From contig OX031070.1 of assembly GCA_943736015.1 (NCBI GenBank), forward strand, positions 21,349,673 to 21,413,672: 64,000 nt of DNA. The letters run 5' to 3'. Under the pieces are notes generated by a model. That model made no database searches. It was not told where the DNA came from and saw only the letters and a list, made by a program, of their open reading frames with translations. Shown here one piece after another: positions 5,991 through 48,300 of this stretch (its first letter is position 1; each line of letters starts with the position of its first letter). This stretch comes from Tridacna crocea. Its lineage: Eukaryota; Mollusca; Bivalvia; Cardiida; Cardiidae. A program made the translations under genes and the position numbers.

Positions 5991-6082
5991 AGAAATTCCC
6001 CATTAACAATTTTTCACTGACTTTTTCCATGACCAAGGACACCTAGATTCTAGTTTAGTCTTGTATGTGTGTAGTGTCCAAA

Positions 6083-6746
6083 GGTCTCAGTGTACAGTAA
6101 ATACCACAGTTCCTCTGTTGTCGACAAACAACTACAACACCGACTTGAAAATTTCCTTCAAACACCAACCTGAAAACAAAGAGACCTGTTCTTAGTCTAA
6201 ATGCAATGTACAACTGCTAATTAATCACAACAAATCATATGAATACTGTAAGAAAAGCACAAAACCTATCACTCATAGCTATTTGGCACGTTTGCGGAAA
6301 CTGCTCGAAATCGAGCGATTTTACGATAAACTCAATGTGCAGCAGACAGCAGATTTGCATTGATGGCCTCTAACTGGCATGCTTTCTGTACAGTAAAATC
6401 AATTCAAAGTCTGTGGACATGCCAAAAAATACCATGATTCCAGCTACTTTTTCCACAATTTTATGGCGTATTCCTACCTTTCAAAATAAGCACGCAAAAA
6501 CAGAAAAAGTCCGCAAACCTACCACTTTGGATTCCTAGAGGCACAGGGTACCGGTAAACTGTGGAAGAGTCATGAGCTTTTAGTTCCGAATTTGCAAATG
6601 GGCTTTATTTCAGATTTTGAGCCCATTCAGGGCACCAGTATCAATCCTTACCTTCAAATCTGCGGTCAAATCTTGCATTTTCTTGATATTTATAAATTTG
6701 ACCATGGCCACTTCGAATATTCCACGCCTTACTGTACACTGATACC
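6083..6746 (+). repeat. 664-bp terminal direct repeat, left copy
   Basis: It begins GGTCTCAGTGTACAGTAA and ends TTACTGTACACTGATACC; these are inverted repeats matching at 17 of 18 positions. There is no ORF of note inside. Subterminal CTGTACAGTAA recurs at about 6386. Confidence 0.9.
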
Positions 6747-7557
6747 TTAAGGAGTGAAAAAGTTTTTTGCCTACTTTAGTTTAATCTAGATTTAAACACT
6801 TTAACCTAATTCTGAATGATTTAGACCTCTTAAATCACAGCTGGATGCTATAAAGCATGTAAATAATTGAAATTAACCCTTGCACCAAACAGCACATTTC
6901 ACCCCATTTTAGAGTGCAGAATTTACTCACAGTCAGTTGATTTCAAAAACTCCTTCTTCCCTTGAAGCTTCTTTCTCATACTTTTACACCCACTGATCAA
7001 TCTTGGTTTACATTCTAGTGTATTAAATGATACCTTCTGCATGATCCTTTCATCTCTAAGTGCAAATTTAACTTGCAGAAAACAGTTTTTCGGCCCGTAC
7101 CATGCCAATTTATCTGTGAATTTTGACAAACTTGCTTCCTTTTTCCTTACCTAAGGACTGCTACTGCAATATTACATCACTCACAGCTTGGAGAACATTA
7201 GATAATCAAATGCAAATTCAAATAAGCCCTTATTTAAATAATATTGTGACAAAATACCCAATACAGGAGTGTATTTACAGTCCAGGGGAGGTAATTCAAA
7301 TTTTCCAACTTGAGTTCTCTATCTCAACTGATTTTCTAAACCCAAGTCCAAGCATCTCTGAGGCAAGCACTTGCACTGTAAAGATGTAACCTGATATTGC
7401 AGCTGATAAACCAACATATTTAATTGTCTTAATGGTCATTTTATCTACAAACCTGTCCGAAAAACAAAGAAATCTGACCAACATCTCACTTTCTATGTGG
7501 ACTTAGTCTTGCACAGAACAGTTTTCTAAAGGAAATCAGTGGTTTTTGGAATTTACA

Positions 7558-9441
7558 ATGTCTTTCCAACCTTATAGAACACGGAGAAGCTGTAACAATT
7601 CATACAAAAAGAGGGCTACCCAGTTTAAGAAGGGTTCGCGCCAAGTCATGGATAATGTCGTGGAAAATGAAATTGAACCTGAGCCCATGCCTTCAACCTC
7701 GGGATGTCATGCACCAAAAAGATGTCGCCTTACAAGCCAAGAGGCAGTCGATTTGGCAAAAATTTCAACTTCTCCTGACCTTCCCTATATTCTTCGACCG
7801 AAACATGTCACAGATGAATGCCCGGGCATAGAAAATACAAAAATGGAGGAAAATGTTATCGTCAATATGAGAAACGTAGCTGAGCTGATAAACCAAGTAC
7901 ATGGATTTACGTGCAAAAAATCAAGAGTCACTGTCGATCTTGTTAACCGAACTGGCCTATGTGTATCATTTGCAATGAAGTGTAGTTCATGTGGATTTAG
8001 ACTTGAGCCTTTCCGAATGTCAGACACAGTAAAGAAAACTAAAGGCCCACCGGCCGGTGCACTGAATGAAATGGTTGTATTACCCGCAATCAAAACAAAA
8101 GTTGGCCTAGCTGATATTACTACAGTCTTAGCCTGTTTAAACATCAAAGCTCCAAGCAAAAAAGCAATGCAGCTGAAATTCAATGCTATGTGCGACAAAA
8201 TGACAGCACTCAATGAGAGGCAAATGGGACTAAACCAAGAGTACCTACAACGTGTAACCTCATTAGTTCCGACACATGCAGGAATTGATGTTCAGTACGA
8301 CGCTTCATATTCAAGTCGACCGCAAGGCGGCTGTGAAAAGGCAGAACAGAGCTTTGCCCCTCTGATTGAACATTCAACAACCAGGAAGCTTCCAATTGCA
8401 GTCGGGGTGGCCAACAAACACTGCAGATTAAAGGCCTGTGACCATAACAATGCAAAATGCAAGAAGAACTACAGTTCAGTTGATACTATAGCCTCCAGTG
8501 AGCGCTCACTTTTATTCGACACGCTTAACGATGTTCGAAAGAGGGGTCACATTACACTTCGCTCGGTAACGACTGATGCCAGCCAACAACTCAGCAGAGC
8601 CCTAAAGGATTTCAAAGCCAACACCAATTCAAACATATCGCATCAAGTTTGTTTCATACATAGAGGCCGAACACTTCAAAAACACATTCGAGCGATGAAG
8701 TTAACCAGCATACCTACATGTTACGACAAACGAATGTATCAACAAAAATTGGCCAGTTGTATAAGGATTAGAATTAGAATGGAGCTTAAAAAGGCAAGAG
8801 CAGTTACAAAAAGTGACGACTCTTTCGTTCTTGCTGGCTCGAGAGCTACAGGTGTCGTAATGAAATGTCTTTCTGGTCAACACCAGCTTTGCCGAGAATT
8901 TTCCTACGTATGCAGGAGCCACCTAGCTTCTTACACAACAAGTCACTTACCATTTGGGGTACATTTACAGCTCAGCCAAAGAGAATTGTGCTTAATTCAG
9001 AAAGAAATTAATGAAGTATTTAATGAAGATAGCCTAAAAAGCATGAGCAGATTATTTACCACCAATTACTGTGAAAGCTTGCATTCTGCAGTGTTTACAC
9101 TGGCTCCAAAATCGGTTTGTTACACACGCAACTTTGCAGCCATGTGCCATTCCGCCACACATTCTCGCTCTGTAGGACCAAGCCGATCAATGATAAGTAT
9201 TGCACAAGAAGCCGGCTTAAAGGTTTACAAGCAATCTAGATTCTATAAGCAGCTGAAACTAGCAGACCGACAAAGGCAATATCACTCTAGAAGACAGGCT
9301 TCTACAGAATTTAAGCAGCAAAGATACTATCTGCGAAAAAGAAAATCACACAGTTTCTTCTTCAACAGTGACTCCCTGTATAGTATGGAAAATGTCGCCT
9401 CTCGGTCTGCTATTGATCATAGCTATGGCCTATCCTCATGA
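7558..9441 (+). CDS. Mutator-like (MULE) transposase
   Basis: Uninterrupted 627-codon frame from the first ATG (7558) to a TGA, long enough for an intact transposase that cuts and joins element ends in the nucleus. The N terminus is basic and proline-rich. A CxxC pair lies at residues 142/145 (CSSCG). The core starts with GIDVQYDASYSSRP (Asp244, Asp248), followed by a Cys cluster (289, 294, 301), VTTDASQQ (Asp340) and an NYCESLHS motif with Glu506 before LAPK. This order of D, D and (N)xxESxH..PK matches the Mutator-like transposase domain common in invertebrate genomes. The C terminus is Arg/Lys/Gln-rich and probably binds DNA. Upstream non-coding exons are possible. There are no internal stops, in contrast to the decayed transposons elsewhere in the window. 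Family call is from memory of motifs. Confidence 0.88.
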   Translation: MSFQPYRTRRSCNNSYKKRATQFKKGSRQVMDNVVENEIEPEPMPSTSGCHAPKRCRLTSQEAVDLAKISTSPDLPYILRPKHVTDECPGIENTKMEENVIVNMRNVAELINQVHGFTCKKSRVTVDLVNRTGLCVSFAMKCSSCGFRLEPFRMSDTVKKTKGPPAGALNEMVVLPAIKTKVGLADITTVLACLNIKAPSKKAMQLKFNAMCDKMTALNERQMGLNQEYLQRVTSLVPTHAGIDVQYDASYSSRPQGGCEKAEQSFAPLIEHSTTRKLPIAVGVANKHCRLKACDHNNAKCKKNYSSVDTIASSERSLLFDTLNDVRKRGHITLRSVTTDASQQLSRALKDFKANTNSNISHQVCFIHRGRTLQKHIRAMKLTSIPTCYDKRMYQQKLASCIRIRIRMELKKARAVTKSDDSFVLAGSRATGVVMKCLSGQHQLCREFSYVCRSHLASYTTSHLPFGVHLQLSQRELCLIQKEINEVFNEDSLKSMSRLFTTNYCESLHSAVFTLAPKSVCYTRNFAAMCHSATHSRSVGPSRSMISIAQEAGLKVYKQSRFYKQLKLADRQRQYHSRRQASTEFKQQRYYLRKRKSHSFFFNSDSLYSMENVASRSAIDHSYGLSS

Positions 9442-9557
9442 ACAAAAGTAACAAGAACAGAATATGAACAAACTCTTCAAACAACAAAACCGAGTAACCA
9501 CAGAAAATGTATGCAACAGAACGTTTTTCCCCCTTTCCGAAAATAAACGATTCTTAC

Positions 9558-9947
9558 CGCATCTGGGAAGAGACATCGCTTCATTGCCCGATGACCAGTG
9601 CATTCTCCATTTTGTCTACAAACTTTCCTCGCATTGTTAACTGATGCAGGTTCATACGACAAGTGGTCTATATTTACACAAAGCTTATTGTGACAGACAT
9701 GAGAAACATGCATGGAGCTGCATAACTGTACTGGACTATTCTCCAGAAAGAACATTAGTCGGTGAACCAGCAGTTTCAACCGTTTGCCATTCACAGTAAC
9801 CCTATATATACCATAACCATATACATCAGTTGGACCGGTCCAAACGACACACTCACCGCCAGCAGCTACGAATTTGCTGACTAGAGCACAACGTATTGTA
9901 TCAGCATGTTCATGATCCAAAGCAGTTCCGAAGAATGCACGGGCCAT
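9558..9947 (-). CDS. His-Me finger (HNH-type) endonuclease ORF in the MULE
   Basis: From the first in-frame ATG (9945-9947) the frame runs 130 codons to an excellent donor, GCG|GTAAGA, at 9558/9557; it stays open to 9477 if unspliced. Codons upstream of the ATG are also open, and an acceptor-like ATTACAG lies about 20 bp before it, so a further 5' exon is possible. The core reads VVWTGP..GYG....HR, then HVSHVCHNKLCVNIDHL. This is the zinc-loop/His-Me finger signature of phage homing endonucleases (zf-His_Me_endon type), with the likely catalytic His in VSHVCHN and Cys/His metal ligands around it. It is convergent with the transposase inside the same inverted repeats, so it is probably cargo or an accessory of the transposon. 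An exon after the donor was not found. Confidence 0.72.
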
Positions 9948-10289
9948 ATTTGGGTATGTTGAATTTATTTCTGTAATATCAGGAAAAGCGAATTTGTTGA
10001 TAGGCAACCCATATTTATCGGTTGCTAGCCATAAAAATACTTGAAACTGTCTATAGAGGACGAAACTTGGTAAAATTTTGATTAACGGACTTTTCCAGAA
10101 AAAAACAATTTTGGAAGCTTATTCCTACATATTGGATTACCTCCCCTGTTCAGAGTCCTTCTATTGATATATCATAAGCTTCAGAGCATTGCAAAGGGCA
10201 TTTTATGTTTGGAAACTGGTCGAATATCTGACCGAAATACATTTCAGCCTGATTTTCAACGAAAAAAAAATTGTCATCTTACCTCTTAA

Positions 10290-10953
10290 GGTCTCAGTGT
10301 ACAGTAAATACCACAGTTCCTCTGTTGTCGACAAACAACTACAACACCGACTTGAAAATTTCCTTCAAACACCAACCTGAAAACAAAGAGACCTGTTCTT
10401 AGTCTAAATGCAATGTACAACTGCTAATTAATCACAACAAATCATATGAATACTGTAAGAAAAGCACAAAACCTATCACTCATAGCTATTTGGCACGTTT
10501 GCGGAAACTGCTCGAAATCGAGCGATTTTACGATAAACTCAATGTGCAGCAGACAGCAGATTTGCATTGATGGCCTCTAACTGGCATGCTTTCTGTACAG
10601 TAAAATCAATTCAAAGTCTGTGGACATGCCAAAAAATACCATGATTCCAGCTACTTTTTCCACAATTTTATGGCGTATTCCTACCTTTCAAAATAAGCAC
10701 GCAAAAACAGAAAAAGTCCGCAAACCTACCACTTTGGATTCCTAGAGGCACAGGGTACCGGTAAACTGTGGAAGAGTCATGAGCTTTTAGTTCCGAATTT
10801 GCAAATGGGCTTTATTTCAGATTTTGAGCCCATTCAGGGCACCAGTATCAATCCTTACCTTCAAATCTGCGGTCAAATCTTGCATTTTCTTGATATTTAT
10901 AAATTTGACCATGGCCACTTCGAATATTCCACGCCTTACTGTACACTGATACC
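10290..10953 (+). repeat. 664-bp terminal direct repeat, right copy
   Basis: Same length and orientation as 6083-6746. I found no difference on a line-by-line comparison. It is followed directly by AAAACC and then by AT-rich sequence resembling that left of the composite element. Confidence 0.9.
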
Positions 10954-11357
10954 AAAACCTATAGAAAATATACCCTAATCTTTGCTAAAAACATAATATG
11001 TTAAAAATGTGTACCTTTAAGAGCATGATTCACAACTGTATGAAATAAAAAAATAGAACATTAATACTGCATGTAATAAATAAGGAAAACAAGCAAAGAC
11101 TCTCCTGCCCTTGTTCAAAATGAAATATTTAAAATTCCCTATTATTCATACACCACATAAAGAAATATTTAAACTATACCCTGTCCCTAGTACAACCTGT
11201 ACCAAGCAAAAAATACCCTTGGTCCTAGTAATACATGAAACAATACAAAAAGATGAGCCTATCCTGTAAGTTCTACACACAAATCCTAACACAATAAAAA
11301 ATACACTGTGAGACTAAAAGAAACCTAAATATGAGCCATGCTGCTGAAAAAGGGGGC

Positions 11358-11586
11358 TTAACTCTTTACCACACGAGAAAATTTTAGACTGGTTCAAATT
11401 GAAAGCATTTGCAGATGACAAAATAAAGGTGACTGAAAAATTGAAATTTGTTCTGGGAAGGGTAGAAAACACTGTGGGAAAAGGAGAAAATGCTGTTTAC
11501 CAGCATTTTCTCCTTTTCCCACAATGTTTTCTAAAGGCTTCTTTCTCAGGGGTGTCAAAAGTAGGGATTGTGTGGTAATGGGTTAA
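11358..11586 (-). mobile_element. TTAA-hairpin MITE, subfamily A
   Basis: 229 bp, TTAA at both ends, CTCTTTACC and GGTAATGGG termini, central palindrome around 11490-11530. Long arm first. Confidence 0.9.
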
Positions 11587-11716
11587 TGCATCTCTCTGAT
11601 AGCTGGTAACCAAGCAAGTCATCACAGTATGACAGTCATAAAATTTGTTCTGTATAACAATCTACCGAATCACAAGGTACACTGGTCCTTTGACATGCAG
11701 AAAATTTACGAAAAGC

Positions 11717-11812
11717 AAAAAGTTTTGGCCTAGGTCAGCCTGCCTGGACTGCGCAGGCTGACGTGGGTCGATACTTTTGCAATTGCATTAAGCCCCATAT
11801 TCTCAGAGCATG
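11717..11812. repeat. Palindromic element with GGTCAGCCTG / CAGGCTGAC core
   Basis: Inverted halves AGGTCAGCCTGC and GCGCAGGCTGAC meet near 11750, followed by GGTCGATACTTTTGCA and AGAGCATGA. Related copies lie at about 16000, 35340, 41755 and 52170. Confidence 0.7.
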
Positions 11813-11815
11813 ATT

Positions 11816-12042
11816 TTAACCCATTACCACACAATCCCTACTTTTGACGCTTCTGAGAAAGAAGGCCTTAGAAAATATTGTGGAAAAAGGAGAAAATGCT
11901 GGTTACCAGCATTTCTAGTTACCAGCATTTTCTCCTTTTCCCACAATGTTTTCTACACTTCACAGAACAAATGTCAAATTTTCAGTCACTTTTGCTTTTG
12001 ATTTGGATAAGCCTAAAATATTGTCGTTTGGTAATGAGGTAA
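11816..12042 (+). mobile_element. TTAA-hairpin MITE, subfamily A, with expanded hairpin
   Basis: Left TTAA intact, right TTAA decayed to GTAA. The palindrome carries an extra short internal repeat of ACCAGCATTT, so it has three half-arms. Confidence 0.8.
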
Positions 12043-29484: not shown

Positions 29485-31004
29485 CTAGAAGGCCCTGAAG
29501 GGCCTGATATTGCTCTACTGGCAGAGATTTTGCTTTTATTCTAGTATACACTATGAATTCATGATGCAAAAAGAAAAAAAATACAATGATTAAAATCAGA
29601 AATGCCGACTTCAACAGATTAAATAAGAAATCAAAATTTTCAACTTGAAATGGCTTCTTTTCCCATACTGATTGTCGATATTTTTCAAAATTGATAGGGT
29701 TGGAGCTATTGATAAGATAAACAAACTCTGCAAGTTTCACAAAAATCTGATAACAAATGCAGACTTTATCACGTACACAAGAAATAAACAAGAAATGCAT
29801 ATTTTAATGCGTAAACAAGAATTGGTAATTTTTAACTTGAAATGGCTACTTTTCCCATACTGTTTGTTCGATTTATTTCAAAATTGATACTGTTGAAGCT
29901 TTTGGCGAGATAAACAAACCGTGCAAGTTTCACAAAAATCTAATAACAAATGCACATTTTATCCCGTAAACAAGAATTTGAAATTTTCAACTTGAAATGG
30001 CTACTTTTCCCATACTGTTGGTTGGATTTTTCTCAAAATAAATTGGGTTAAAGCTACTGATAAGATAAAAAAAACTGTGTGATTTTCATGAAAATCTGAC
30101 AAGAAAGACCGACTTTATTGTGTAAACATGAATTAGAAATTTTCAACTTGAGAGGGCTACTTTTCCCATACCGTTTGTTGGATTTTTTTTCAAAATCAAT
30201 AGGGCTGAAGCTATTGATGAGATAAACAATCTGTGCAAGTTTCACAAAAATCGTGCAACAAATACAGACTTTATCGCGTAAACAAGAATTAGGAATTTTC
30301 AACTTGAAATGGCTACTTTTCCCATACTGATTGTTGGATTTTTTGTTAAAATAGATAGGGTTGAAGCTATTGATGAGATAAACAAACTGTGCAAGTTTCA
30401 CAAAAAACTGTCCACAAATGCAGACTTTATCGCATAAACAAGAATTAGAAATTTTCAACTTGAAATGGCTACTTTTCCCATACTATTTGTTGGATTTTTC
30501 TCAATATCAATAAGGTTGAAGCTATTGCTGAGATAAACAAACTGTGCAAGTTTCACAAAAATCTGACCACAAATGCAGACTTTATCGCGTAAACAATAAT
30601 TAGAAATTTTCAACTTGAAATGGCTACTTTTCCCATACTATTTATTGGATTTTTCTCAATATCAATAGGGTTGAAGCTATTGATGAGATAAACAAACTGT
30701 GCAAGTTTCACGAAAATCTGACCACAAATGCAGACTTTATCGCGTAAACAAGAATTTGAAATTTTCAACTTGAAATGGCTACTTTTCTCATACTGTTTGT
30801 TGGATTTTTCTCAAAATCAATAGGGTTGAAGCCATTGATGAGGTAAACAAACTGTGCAAGTTTCATGAAAATCGGGCAATAGATACAGACTTTATCGTGT
30901 AAACAAGAAAAAGACTAACGGATGGACAGACGGACGGACAGACGGATGGACGACGGAAACCACGCCATGACATAAGCTCTGCTGGCTGAAAGCCAGTAGA
31001 GCTA
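29485..31004 (+). mobile_element. Helitron-associated element (HINE-like) with 155-bp core array
   Basis: The 5' end has a small hairpin, GGCCCTGAAGGGCC, and TGCTCTACTGGCAGAG. The interior is a tandem array. The 3' end has a GGACAGACGGACGG microsatellite and a terminal stem AGCTCTGCTGGCT / AGCCAGTAGAGCT. Non-coding with asymmetric ends and no target duplication, as known for Helentron-associated elements of bivalves. Confidence 0.8.
29640..30905 (+). repeat. Tandem array, about eight units of about 155 bp
   Basis: Each unit contains AACTTGAAATGGCTACTTTT, GTTGGATTTTT, GGTTGAAGCTATTGA, GAGATAAACAAACTGTGCAA and GACTTTATCGCGTAAAC. Units differ by scattered substitutions. The unit length recalls the BIV160-type bivalve satellite core (from memory). 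Confidence 0.88.
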
Positions 31005-31468
31005 AAAAAACATTGTGGGAAAAGGAGAAAATGCTGGTATCCGTTTTAAAATGCTACTTAATGGTCTCTATAACTCAAAATTGTGAGGTTAAGGGTAAAT
31101 CATGACTATCCTGGCCTCGCAAGTGCTAGACTGTGACTCCATAATGCCTTGCTTAAAGGGCAAATCCTAAGATTTTTTGACCATACTGTTTTTTTGCTCC
31201 AATCAGCTGCAAATGATGTTAGTAAACACGTGTCCATCAGTTTTCATAAATACCACTCTGTAACATGCCATAAATCACGCTCGAATTGTCACGCTGATAT
31301 ACGGCCCCAAAAATGGTGCATGGCTTACTTCCCCTGATTCGCTTATCTTCCGTACCTGTGTGACGTCATAGTCGCGTAAGCCTGTGTTTACAGTCAGTAG
31401 AAATAAGTAGGAACGCTGATGATTATACGCAGATATCTGAGTATTAACATAGAATTCAGCCGAAAAAA

Positions 31469-31831
31469 ATGGTAAATTGTGCAGCCTATGGCTTCAACGT
31501 CGAATCAGGAACACATAGAATTAATATGTTCAAATTTCCGAAGGAATTAAAAAGGAGGAAACTATGGATTCAACGTTTAAACCGGGGCCGGACAGTAACG
31601 GAGGATTTTGTGCCATCAGTTCATTCCAAATTGTGTTTGAAACACTTCGAGGACAGTCAGTTCTTAATAAGTCCAAAACTCGTAAAAGAAGTTGGTTATA
31701 GGAATATCAGGCTGCGATTAAAACCTGATGCTGTGCCGACATTGTTCGAAACTCGGAGTCGAAATAAGATAGGCCATAAGACAGACATTCCGCAATGGCA
31801 ATCTCCAAAAAGAAAAATAAACATAAGGTCG
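31469..31831 (+). CDS. THAP-domain exon of a Kolobok-like transposase, incomplete
   Basis: Starts at ATG 31469 in an AAAAAAATGG context. Residues 1-90 follow the THAP fold: MVNCAAYGF, then HRINMFKFPKELKRRKLW, SKLCLKHFED and LKPDAVPTLFE. THAP fingers use C2CH zinc ligands. The first Cys (4) and the later C..HF pair are present, but the position of the second Cys holds Phe9, so zinc binding may be impaired. After about 121 codons a possible donor (TCG|GTAATT) precedes a MITE. No catalytic domain follows, so this is a fossil exon rather than a working host gene, although domestication cannot be excluded. Confidence 0.75.
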
Positions 31832-31944
31832 GTAATTCCTTTAATTGTTTTTCGTAATATTTTATCCTTTTCTAGATCTACATTCTGGACAAAGTAGAAA
31901 TTGGTGCCGTTTTCTCCCTTTTTTTCCCTAAATGTTTTCAACAT

Positions 31945-35278: not shown

Positions 35279-35334
35279 AACATCTCTCTTATGATACCAA
35301 GCATATCATCAAATGATTAAACTGACTGACTCAT

Positions 35335-42300: not shown

Positions 42301-45300
42301 TCAATACAACTGAAGGAAAACTTAAGGAGAAATTTGTGCCACAAAATTACTAGTATATTACAGACAGATAAATGTTGAGAAAAAAAGTGTCGAGTTCAAG
42401 GGTAGATAAGGGTAGATTTATTACAGACAGATAAATGTTGAGAAAAAAAGTGTTGAGTTCAAGGGTAGATAATTACTAAAACATGAGGAACTGACAGATG
42501 GATCTGAAGAAAAGCAAGTGTCAAGTTCAAGGGTAGATAATTATTCCTCAACCAGGAGGAGTTGACACTTGAAAATTGTGTCTTGCAAACCTTCAATATA
42601 TGATCAATATATGTGCAAAGTTTCAATACAATCAAAGGAAAACTGTAGGAGAAATTTGCGACACAAAATTACTAGTAAAACATAAACAGATAGATGTTGA
42701 GAAAAAACAGTGTCAAGTTCAAGGGTAGATAATTATTCCTCAACCAGGAGGAGTTGACACTTGAAAATTGCGTCTTGCAAATCTTTAATATATGATCAAA
42801 ATATACGCAAAGTTTCAATACAATTGAAGGAAAACTGTAGGAGAAATTTGCGACACAAAATTACTAGTATATCATAAAGAGATAGATGATGAGAAAAAAC
42901 AGTGCCAAGTCCAAGGATAGATAATTCCTCAACCAGGAAGAACTGACACTAGAAAATTGCAGGCAGATTCCAGTATACCCCTGAAAACATTCGTTCTAAG
43001 GGGTTATAATTACATCAAATTCAATCAAAAGCTATTCCTAAACTAATCCATTTATACCTTTCTTGGATGTATAATTATTGTTACATGACAATTATGGTCT
43101 GTGGCAAATTTGCGGAACTTTGATACAATCCTGTCTTGTCGCATAAAAATGTTCTGTACAGGGGCATCATACTGGTCCATTCCCACCATGAACTGAAGGT
43201 TGTCTAAAATAACGTGTTGAATGTTATGTACATACACTGCATGAAACATAGTCTGAAAATAAAACAGGAAAATTAAAAGAATTTTTAAATGAGTACATCC
43301 CTTAACACATGTGTATTAGACCTTTAAAACATAGCAAAAATCCAAATTAAACTTTGGCATGTGTGTATAAAATATTCTAACCCGACATGTGAATTTGGCT
43401 CTATAAACACAGTGCAAGGAAAGCGTGGTAAAGTCTGTGACAATCCATGTAGAGTGATGTCATCCTATATCGAGTGACGTCATTCAATGAGTTAGTTATT
43501 CAATGGAACACAATCTTCATCCGCATTTTTGCTCTAAGTTTGTTTTCCTTTCATTAAGAGTTGGCCATGTTAGAATCGACATGATCTTCTTTCTATCATG
43601 GTTAATCGTATAATAAACCACATTGTGAGTTATAAGGCGCAATAATAACCCACTGGGGCTATTGCCCTCGTGGATTATTGATTGGGCCTCATAACTCACA
43701 ACTGTGGTTAATTGAACGATATACCAAGATAGAAAGAAGATTATTTCTTAAATATCACAGAAAACTTACTTCAATAACTTGATCCACATTCTGTTGACCA
43801 TGGTAAGCCATGAAGTACATGGGTAAATGCATGAATTCCTTTGACACCTCATCAAATTCATCCAGGTGCCGTGTCATATTTTTACTGAAAAGGTCCCAAG
43901 GTGATTTAATAGGTGATTTGTTTCCTTCTGTTTTTTTTCTTTTTTAATTATTCTATGATATCAAGGCAGTAAATAACTATCTGTGAGACAGAAAAAGTTT
44001 AGACTTTTCCAAACTGAAAACATTTACAGACGACACTTTAAATGTGGCTTTAATAATGGCATTGGTCAGTGACAATGTTGTCGAAAGGGAGAAAATACTG
44101 GTTACCATGCTCCTTAATGCTCTCGAAAGCTTTACTCTACACACAAAATTGTTTGGTAAAGAGATAACTGTTTCCAGCTCCCTATCCAATGCTATAGTAC
44201 ATTGCATGAGTGACGAGCATTTTGCAAAAATTCTTCTTTACTTTGTAAAACAACAGAAATGGATGAATAAGAAAAAAAATGTTTAGTAATGATTGTATGA
44301 CTTGAAAGTCATAAATATTAAGTTAAAATTGAAAGTTCAAAGCACATGTAGACAGAGAAGATCATGATCAGACTACCCAATAAGCAAACACACTGCCACA
44401 TGATGCCCGACTGCACTGTGTCTCTAGCAGCATCAGACTTTTAACAGTTCCATTTGTAATTCGTCCATCTCATTTTCAATATGTTGTCACTATACTTAAT
44501 TACAGGACGGAATAGACCACAAGAAATTATGAGCAGGATCAAAGTTTTGGAGCACCCTTCCCGTCCTTACTTGCCCATGAAGTTTGTAAACAGATTCTTT
44601 CCAAGCCACTGGATGCTTTCCCACATAGCCATCGTTGAAACAGTGGGCAGCAAAGAGAGAGGAATGAATCCTGTTGCAATGACTATTATTAATGCTGGGT
44701 GGGTAATTTCCCCAGCTGAGAATCAAACTAGCAACCCCCTATTCTTCTGTCCTGTACACCACTAATAGCGCTACCAGCTGGACAAGAGGAAATGCTGATT
44801 ATCAGAATTTTCTTTTTCCCCCCATACATGTATTTTCAAAAGCCTTCTTACTGAGGGTCACTAATATTTAGAAAAGGAGCTGAAAAAACAAAAACTCACC
44901 TAGCAAATTGTTGCAACATCATTTTAACAAGTCTTACATTGCAAATTTCAAAACTTCCCCACAAGGTGGTTACCTGAATACATATACAATGCCATTAATT
45001 ATCAACAATTTTGATAACTAAAGATCAGGTTAAATAGACATTAACAAACAAAAGATAAAGTAGGTAAATAAATATTCAATATCTTATATTTATCTAAATA
45101 GCTGCCATACTTAGAACTTGTAAAGCTGGAAATGTTTGTCTTACCAAGGTTTTGATGTATGAAAAAACACTTACTTTCTAAAATTACTACATCTGAAAAG
45201 CATACTCTACCTAGAATGCACAAATCCTTAACTCTTTACCAAATGACAAATTTATAGACTGGTCCAAATTAAAAAGCATTTGCAGACGACACGATAAATG

Positions 45301-48300
45301 CAATTGAAAACTTTAAAATTTGCTGAGGGGAGAGTAGAAAACATTGTGGGAAAAGGAGAAAATGCTGATTACCAGCATTTTCTCCTTTTCCTACAATGTT
45401 TTTAAAAGGCTTCTACCACAGGGTCATCAAAAGTTGGGATTGTGCGGTAAAGGGTTAACCATATTCAAGATATGAAGTTTATCACACTCTATTATGGGTT
45501 TAAGCCTACACACACAAAAAAAAAGAGCATTTCATGTGCTGCAGCTGCTTTTTCTGTGAATGATGTAAGTACACAAGAGGGCATAACTTAATTGAGTCAT
45601 AAATATTGCATGGGTTACCTCCAATTCTAGTATGGGCCCCAATAAACAGGTATCAAATGTTCCAAATTTGAAGAAACTACATAAACTCTTTACCACACAG
45701 TAAAATGTAGACTTCCAAGTTCAAAGCAGACATTAAATGAACCCTAAACCCTTTAGCCGAGCCTCGGTAGCTCAGTCGGTAGCATGCAAGACTTAAGAAC
45801 ATGGGGTCCAGGGTTCGATACCTGGCTACGACCCCTGGCTTGGCAAATGTCTGTCCGAGGATTGATGATAGTCACTGTGACAGGATTCATTCCTCTCCCA
45901 CTGCTGAACATTGTTTTGATGATGATCATGTGGGAAAGCAGCCAGTGGCTTGGGAAGAAAATTGTGAAGTACTGGTAAAAGAATCTCCAGGAACGCATGA
46001 ATAGGTGCACTAGCCGCCACAATATAACTGAAATAATATTGAAAACGGCATGAAACACCATACAACCAATCAAACAATCAACCTTAACCCTTCACCAGAA
46101 GACAAAATTGTGGATTGTTTCATATTCAAAGCAGTGGCTGACAACAAAATTAAATTGACTTAAAAGCTGCAATTTGTTTTAGAAAGGGTAGAAACATTGC
46201 AGGAAAAGGAGAAAATGCTGGTTACTAGCATTTTCTTCTTTTTTTCTACAATGTTTTCAATAGGCTATTTTCTCAGGGTTGTTAAAAGCAGGGATTGTGT
46301 GGTAAAAGGTAAACCAAACAATCCCTGGTTTTCACACCCTGGGAAAGAAAGATTTCAAAACATTGTGGGAAAAAAAGAAAATGCCTGTAACCAGCATTTT
46401 CTCCTTTTCCCTCAATGTTTTCTACTCTATCAACGACAGGAATTATCATTTGGAGCTACATTTTAATTGTTGACTTCAAGGACTTTCCATTTGGTCTGGT
46501 CAGAATTTTGTTGTTTGGTAAAGGCTTTTAATTGTGGTTCAAATAATTGTTTTTTACTTTGTCTCTGATAGTGTAAAAAAATATTGCACGAAAAAAAAGA
46601 TGCTGGTTATTGGCATTTTTCTGCTTCCAATAATGTTTTCAAAAGTTTTCTTTTTCATGGTTGCAGAAACTTAGAACTGTGTTGTAAAGGGTCGATTAAT
46701 GACCTTATTTCAACATTTCAAAAATTTGTACAAGTCAAGACAATGACAGTGCAATGAAAAAAAAAAAATTCTTTTTCCAAAAAAAAAAAAAAAATCTTTT
46801 ACTTCTAATAATAGATCTGGATCCATATTCACCAACCATTCTTAACCCTTTCCCAAATGTTAAATTTTAGACTCTTCAAAACCAAAAGAGTTTGCAGTCG
46901 ATAATTTCAAATTTGATGTAAATGGCGGAAAATTATCTAGAAGGGTAGAAAACAATGTGGAAAAAGGAGAAATTGCTTGGGGGTTGTAACAAGTAATTTC
47001 TCCTTTTCCCACAGTATTTTCAAAAGACCTATACTGTAGACATGTAAAAACAAGGGCTTGTTTGGGATAGGGTTAAGAACATTCTTTGTCTTATTCTTCA
47101 GAATGTGTCAATGTGAAAGTAACAGAGTTTCTGATTGGCTTAACCATTTTGTTTAGCCAATCAGAAGTTCTGTTACTTTCACAGTCAGGAAATCTTGCTT
47201 GAAGAATAAGACCAAGAATGTTCCTAAGAATGGTTGGTAAATACATACCCTGAACTCTACATACCCCTTGCATGCACAAATCCAGACCATATTCAGACAG
47301 AAAGGTGGTTTTTCCACTACCAGTGGGCCCAGTTAAAACAGTCAGCTCCCCTTGACGAAATCCTTTTAGAATATCATTCAGCTTGGAATACCTCTTCCAC
47401 TGTAATGACAGGTCATCACAAATAAACTCTTTATCTGATATCATACAATGATTTTTTACACTTGTCTAAATTAAAAGAACAAGCTTTTGGTGCAAAATAT
47501 ATATTTTGGCTTAAAAATAAAGGAAATTATTGTAATAACATGGGAGTAAAATAGGAAATTATTGGCTTACAAAAGACTTCTATTAAAATCAGAACGTACA
47601 ATTAACTTGAAAGACAATGGACTAAAAGCAATAAAGCAAATCTAAATTTTACCAAAGTCTGATGAATTCTTCCTAACCTCCATCTCTCCTTAACAGCCAG
47701 CCCTTTAAATCACCATCTCTTTTATTACAACATAGATCTCATTTATTTATTTTTTTTGAATTTCCTTTATTAAATTCTCTTCTCCCCACAAGGTTTTTGA
47801 AAAACCTCTTTTTCTGAGAGGATGAAAAGCAGGATTGTTTAACCCTTCACCAAACAATTCCTGGTTTTAACGACGCTGAGGAAGAAGCCTTCTAAAAACA
47901 CTGTGGGAAAAGGAGAAAATGTTGGTAACCAGCATTTTCTCAATTTCCAAAAATGTTTTCTACTCTTCAAAAGTCAATAGTCCATTTCTGAATCACCTAT
48001 ATGTATTTTGTTGTCTGCAAATGCTTTGAATTTGGGGAAGTCTAAAATTTTGTTGTTAGGTTAAGGGTCATAGTCAAACAAAGGGTCAAGGAACAGTGTC
48101 CTACATACCTTCACACCTGTAACATGTTCATGATGGGAAAGCTCTTTATAAATTTCAAGTCTAAGATGTTCGAATGTGTGGATAGCTTCGTGACTGAGTG
48201 GCCGGGCCATTTTTAACTTCTTTCTGATATCTTCCTCTATCTGTATACATTCCAACGGCATCTCATTGACATGGGCTGGCCTGTTCAAAAAGAATAAATG

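Follow-up and report, generated by a model that had tools for sequence, protein, structure and literature searches.

A transposase gene and a nuclease gene meet tail to tail in the window, i.e., the whole stretch of 64,000 nucleotides of Tridacna crocea DNA that was analyzed. Which mobile element carries this pair, and where does that element begin and end? In a first-pass annotation, the two genes were assigned to a Mutator-like element (MULE) enclosed by a pair of short inverted repeats, and such a nuclease was not known from any described animal MULE.

A transposase and a nuclease in convergent orientation

The two genes are located as follows:

7558..9441, + strand: uninterrupted gene for a DDE-type transposase of 627 aa (open reading frame and Pfam; catalytic D, D and E by eye)
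9477..9947, - strand: gene for a His-Me finger nuclease (open reading frame, Pfam and I-PpoI alignment)

The transposase frame runs from an ATG at 7558 to a stop codon ending at 9441 and comprises 627 codons without an internal stop. It matches the Pfam family PF20700 ('Mutator') with an E-value of 5.6e-34 over profile positions 3-357 of 357, and this is the sole Pfam family at E-values up to 1. Among PDB sequences, no match to the transposase occurs at E-values up to 1. The protein contains the motifs GIDVQYD at residue 242, TTDAS at residue 338 and TTNYCES at residue 501, the last of which includes the presumed last E. A CCHC finger, CRLKACDHNNAKC (residues 289-301), follows the presumed first D. 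CFIH, which is of the type C/DxxH, comes at residue 365, after the presumed second D and before the presumed last E; the triad was assigned by eye and not from structure. Between CFIH and the last E, only a loose zinc-finger pattern is matched (CREFSYVCRSHLASYTTSH, residues 445-463).

The nuclease frame (9477-9947) is convergent with that of the transposase and has no internal stop either; read from a TTG at 10007, it would encode 176 aa. It matches PF05551 (zf-His_Me_endon; E 9.3e-13) and HNH_3 (E 7e-6), and aligns to I-PpoI (1evw) with an E-value of 3.1e-4 over residues 68-137 of the 176-residue query. I-PpoI is a homing endonuclease of the His-Cys box type, from a group I intron of Physarum. 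In this alignment of His-Me fingers and zinc-binding residues, S97, H98, C100, C105, H110, E114, N119, C125 and C132 are identical (residue numbers derived from the printed chain range). The remaining zinc ligands beyond the alignment were judged by eye. The two enzymes differ in their carrier, which is a group I intron for I-PpoI and a DNA transposon here. The intact transposase frame and the convergent zinc-loop nuclease of the first-pass annotation were thus both borne out. The profile searches it had proposed gave matches to PF20700 as well as to zf-His_Me_endon, but the term 'Mutator-like' is taken from the Pfam name only; PF20700 is matched in full, but this family may or may not separate MULEs from Kolobok elements, and no paper naming PF20700 was found.

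Relatives of both proteins were sought with short peptide patterns, which reach close relatives only. No relative of the transposase was present among six pattern stretches in viral contigs and 27 in genome contigs. For the nuclease, none of 98 pattern stretches in genome contigs and one of three in viral contigs contained a relative, the latter being distant (contig L001, 33% identity over residues 51-139). Inspection of six frames of at least 100 aa around this relative (positions 3000-8000 of L001), made without a profile search, revealed no evident transposase. AlphaFold models predicted from the two single sequences had mean pLDDT values of 34.1 and 35.3, too low for use.

An AATAAA is present on the + strand at 9542-9547, inside the nuclease frame. 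Because of this position, the transposase transcript may overlap the 3' end of the nuclease gene in antisense. For the - strand, neither AATAAA nor ATTAAA occurs in 9101-9500.

Ends and anatomy of the element

A repeat search and self-BLAST of the window delimit a mobile unit of 4871 bp (6083-10953), in which two long terminal direct repeats (LTDRs) enclose an internal region (INT):

6080..6082: left outer target-site duplication (TSD) AAA (3/3 compared to 10954-10956)
6083..6746, + strand: left LTDR, 664 bp, identical to 10290-10953 (tips 17/18)
6747..10289: INT, 3543 bp, with TTAA at both ends (from the sequence)
10290..10953, + strand: right LTDR, 664 bp, identical to the left LTDR
10954..10956: right outer TSD AAA, matching the left copy

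The LTDRs form a perfect direct repeat that flanks the transposase-nuclease pair. Trimmed to its tips, an LTDR starts with GGTCTCAGTGTACAGTAA and ends with TTACTGTACACTGATACC, which are inverted repeats of each other at 17 of 18 positions and of the type GG..CC. The outer AAA copies match fully (a 4-bp version matches at 3 of 4 positions), which in AT-rich DNA is weak evidence by itself. No further copy of the LTDR or the INT exists in the 64-kb window (self-BLAST, E 1e-3). The identity of the two LTDRs would fit a recent insertion or a recent homogenisation. From its sequence features, we consider it very probable that a single DNA transposon of the KolobokP type occupies 6083-10953, as a monomer that looks autonomous and was inserted, or else homogenised, recently.

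Comparison with KolobokP and Mutator-like elements

KolobokP belongs to the Kolobok superfamily and was described by Kojima and Bao in 2022, with 228 families in seven animal phyla; it is common in bivalves (PMC9587614). In a 2025 bivalve paper, this work is cited for Kolobok-like lncRNAs with a tandem structure. The present element shares the LTDR-INT-LTDR composition of KolobokP, and its LTDR falls in the longer of the two published classes (~450 or ~660 bp). The tips of KolobokP LTDRs are perfect or imperfect inverted repeats of 11-18 bp that follow 5'-RR..YY-3' (PMC9587614), a rule with which the tips found here agree. KolobokP TSDs measure 3-4 or 4-5 bp, as stated for solo LTDRs (PMC9587614), and the outer duplication here is similarly short (3 bp, weak in itself). 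The gene order corresponds as well, with the transposase on the direct strand and the nuclease downstream on the complementary strand (PMC9587614), the latter here being an I-PpoI-like His-Me finger enzyme. For this nuclease, Kojima and Bao name S97, H98, H110, E114 and N119 plus eight zinc-binding His/Cys residues. In the transposase, a CCHC finger after the first D is a mark of a few Kolobok lineages, and the KolobokP signature consists of C/DxxH between the second D and the last E plus a further zinc finger before the last E (PMC9587614); the CCHC finger at 289-301 and CFIH at 365 recur here, with catalytic residues placed by eye.

The differences from KolobokP are not decisive. The INT has equal 4-bp ends, although these read TTAA and not TATA as in KolobokP-1_MeMe (PMC9587614). 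The element is slightly longer than the autonomous families of oyster, which span 4022-4748 bp (PMC9587614). It also contains an inner inverted pair of CAGGGGAGGTAAT, of which no mention was found in the main text of PMC9587614. The placement in KolobokP is one by anatomy and motifs and not by a tree, because the scans for close relatives returned no transposase relative.

The C/DxxH signature is common to Kolobok and Mutator superfamily transposases (PMC9587614). MULEs typically have terminal inverted repeats (TIRs) at their ends and TSDs of 8-11 bp, with some lacking TIRs (PMC6446971), and in maize MuDR the two TIRs hold the promoters from which mudrA and mudrB are transcribed toward each other (PMC3440606). 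The element resembles MuDR and Mutator-like elements in its C/DxxH-sharing transposase superfamily and its two convergent genes, whereas its ends are direct repeats of 664 bp and its TSD is 3 bp long, instead of TIRs with a TSD of 8-11 bp. The MULE assignment therefore gives way to KolobokP, whose anatomy is found and whose direct repeats with GG..CC tips lie outside the interval that had been claimed. Kojima and Bao also drew a parallel to bacterial composite transposons (PMC9587614): two mobile end units surround a central region in both, but the KolobokP-type transposase is located in the central region and not in the end units.

The inner inverted repeat

The repeats that the first-pass annotation had taken for TIRs do exist inside the INT, in front of the two genes:

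7274..7282: TTTACAGTC, left partner of an imperfect 9-bp direct repeat (7/9 compared to TTCAGAGTC)
7283..7299, + strand: left inner inverted repeat CAGGGGAGGTAATTCAA, the 'TIR' of the first-pass annotation, 258 bp before the transposase ATG
10132..10148, - strand: right copy of the inner inverted repeat, 184 bp before the nuclease ATG
10149..10157: TTCAGAGTC, which forms the imperfect 9-bp direct repeat with TTTACAGTC on the left (7/9)

CAGGGGAGGTAAT occurs without mismatch at two sites in the window, 7283-7295 (+) and 10136-10148 (-), in inverted orientation, so that the pair is indeed enclosed by an inverted repeat, but its copies are not the element ends, as the 664-bp LTDRs lie outside them. 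Two further sites with two mismatches bring the number in the window to four, compared to 0.94 expected. Over 17 nt, the two copies of the inner pair still match at 94%. Just outside it, the 7/9 match at length 9 is reached by a fraction of 0.0022 of 20,000 random position pairs, and at most two mismatches at any length of 8-11 by a fraction of 0.011 of 20,000. In viral contigs, the LTDR tip had no match and the inner repeat had a single unpaired one (contig L002), which was set aside as chance since no second copy occurs within three mismatches in its 14,727 bases.

A Mutator-like element bounded by CAGGGGAGGTAAT (7283-10148), which merely happened to have a copy of an unrelated 664-bp repeat on either side, is very improbable. 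The exact 13-bp inverted pair, the name of the Pfam match and the 7/9 direct repeat, whose length would suit a MULE TSD (8-11 bp; PMC6446971), speak for it. So does the likeness of the two sides, which runs inward (17 of 2000 random window stretches are as good; with the 17-nt motif left out, 81 of 2000) but stops outward (1095 and 1317 of 2000). Yet identical LTDRs whose tips are of the KolobokP type enclose the pair, in keeping with the published anatomy, and the CCHC finger after the presumed first D is a mark of a few Kolobok lineages (PMC9587614). Moreover, the inner repeats are alike over their first 13-17 bp only and then weakly, which argues against them as ends of the present mobile unit, and when the whole INT is shuffled, 98 of 300 sequences contain a self-complementary 13-bp word (palindromes included).

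The latter frequency also fits the reading that the inner pair arose by chance or is a scattered host word that happens to be present twice here. We give this reading slightly less than an even chance. Words resembling GGGGAGRTAAY are scattered over the window, with nine occurrences at up to one mismatch compared to 2.0 expected, a number reached in 1 of 100 shuffles. Conversely, a shared word of at least 13 bp is found in only 34 of 2000 shuffles when the two leaders alone are compared, and the 7/9 direct repeat outside the pair does not suit a chance origin.

Alternatively, by analogy, the two convergent genes might have a 5' leader or promoter in common, represented by the inner pair; this would be compatible with KolobokP but is rather unlikely. 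Each copy precedes a gene and has the same orientation relative to it, weaker colinear matches follow further inward, and maize MuDR provides a model (PMC3440606). GAG/GTAAT and CCTGATATTRCAG, which occur in both leaders, could be a splice donor and acceptor. Against a shared leader, the two leaders do not stand out under strict local alignment, where 378 of 1000 shuffles score at least as well, and the direct repeat outside the pair is left unexplained. Other comparisons gave a split picture, with some tests above chance and others not. With lenient scoring, none of 1000 shuffles was as good as the leaders (31.8 compared to 31.0 for the largest shuffle), a leader comparison with boundaries chosen after the fact gave 0 of 3000 and 3 of 3000, and 7 of 2000 real window stretches equaled the whole leaders. 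The starts of the two coding frames, compared with each other, show no likeness (1939 of 2000).

Finally, the KolobokP INT may descend from an older, separate TIR transposon with a transposase and a nuclease, later captured between two Kolobok-type end units. The CAGGGGAGGTAAT pair and the degenerate 9-bp repeat would then be its fossil ends. We regard this as improbable.

Proposed mode of action of the KolobokP element

Judging from the sequence, the transposase would quite likely act on the LTDRs by binding their GG..CC tips, and would thereby move the entire unit or just one LTDR. The nuclease, as an I-PpoI-like homodimer, would cut the LTDRs, internally or at their ends, at a semi-palindromic site. 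Repair of the cut from the other LTDR or from a sister copy would add or restore LTDR-INT units, giving rise to multimers. Such a nuclease-induced crossover is a tentative part of the scheme. It corresponds to what Kojima and Bao call 'induced unequal crossover', a model that according to them awaits experimental validation (PMC9587614). A homing-like role of the nuclease, as suggested in the first-pass annotation, is plausible because the published KolobokP model proposes one.

The INT-LTDR junction CTCTTAAGGT was considered as a homing site. It resembles the I-PpoI target, but by a hand estimate this likeness was judged to be within chance, since TTAA and GG are already given by the element's own ends, and it does not count as evidence here. 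With up to three mismatches, the 15-bp I-PpoI site had one match in the window, at 35284 and thus off the element, compared to 1.19 expected.

Other features of the window

Shortly to the right of the KolobokP element, 11420-11998 contains inverted repeats of 99, 84, 41 and 33 nt with 87-97% complementarity; this self-complementary block looks like a MITE or foldback element. A tandem array at 29788-30909 has a 155-bp unit in 7.2 copies (87% matches), and one at 42517-42960 has a 192-bp unit in 2.3 copies; the word GGGTAGATAAT occurs in it at 42531 and at 42723, and once more just before the array at 42463. A frame with a THAP domain (31448-31894, + strand; PF05485, E 9e-14) may be a host gene or derived from a transposon, and 47094-47465 (- strand) is probably an exon for Twinkle, the mitochondrial DNA helicase (PDB 7t8b, E 3.4e-19). 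The Twinkle-like exon and the THAP domain give the window an animal-like character, and the exon points to nuclear DNA. Rfam gave no match in the window.

Significance for KolobokP

The element at 6083-10953 is ordinary in kind, an intact-looking KolobokP. The pairing of a transposase with a homing-type nuclease in one animal transposon is already published (PMC9587614), whereas the first-pass annotation knew of no described animal MULE with such a nuclease. The claimed novelty falls, as a published lineage is defined by just this pairing. With its identical 664-bp repeats and both frames open, the element is a convenient and possibly active source for tests of the nuclease target, which the 2022 paper left to experiment (PMC9587614). 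The inner pair is not the end of the element, yet it may have a meaning. How the composite architecture of KolobokP originated is an "intriguing question" for Kojima and Bao (PMC9587614). The reading of the inner pair as fossil ends, if true, would account for this origin, and the inner pair, if general, would bear on the assembly of a composite-like eukaryotic transposon.
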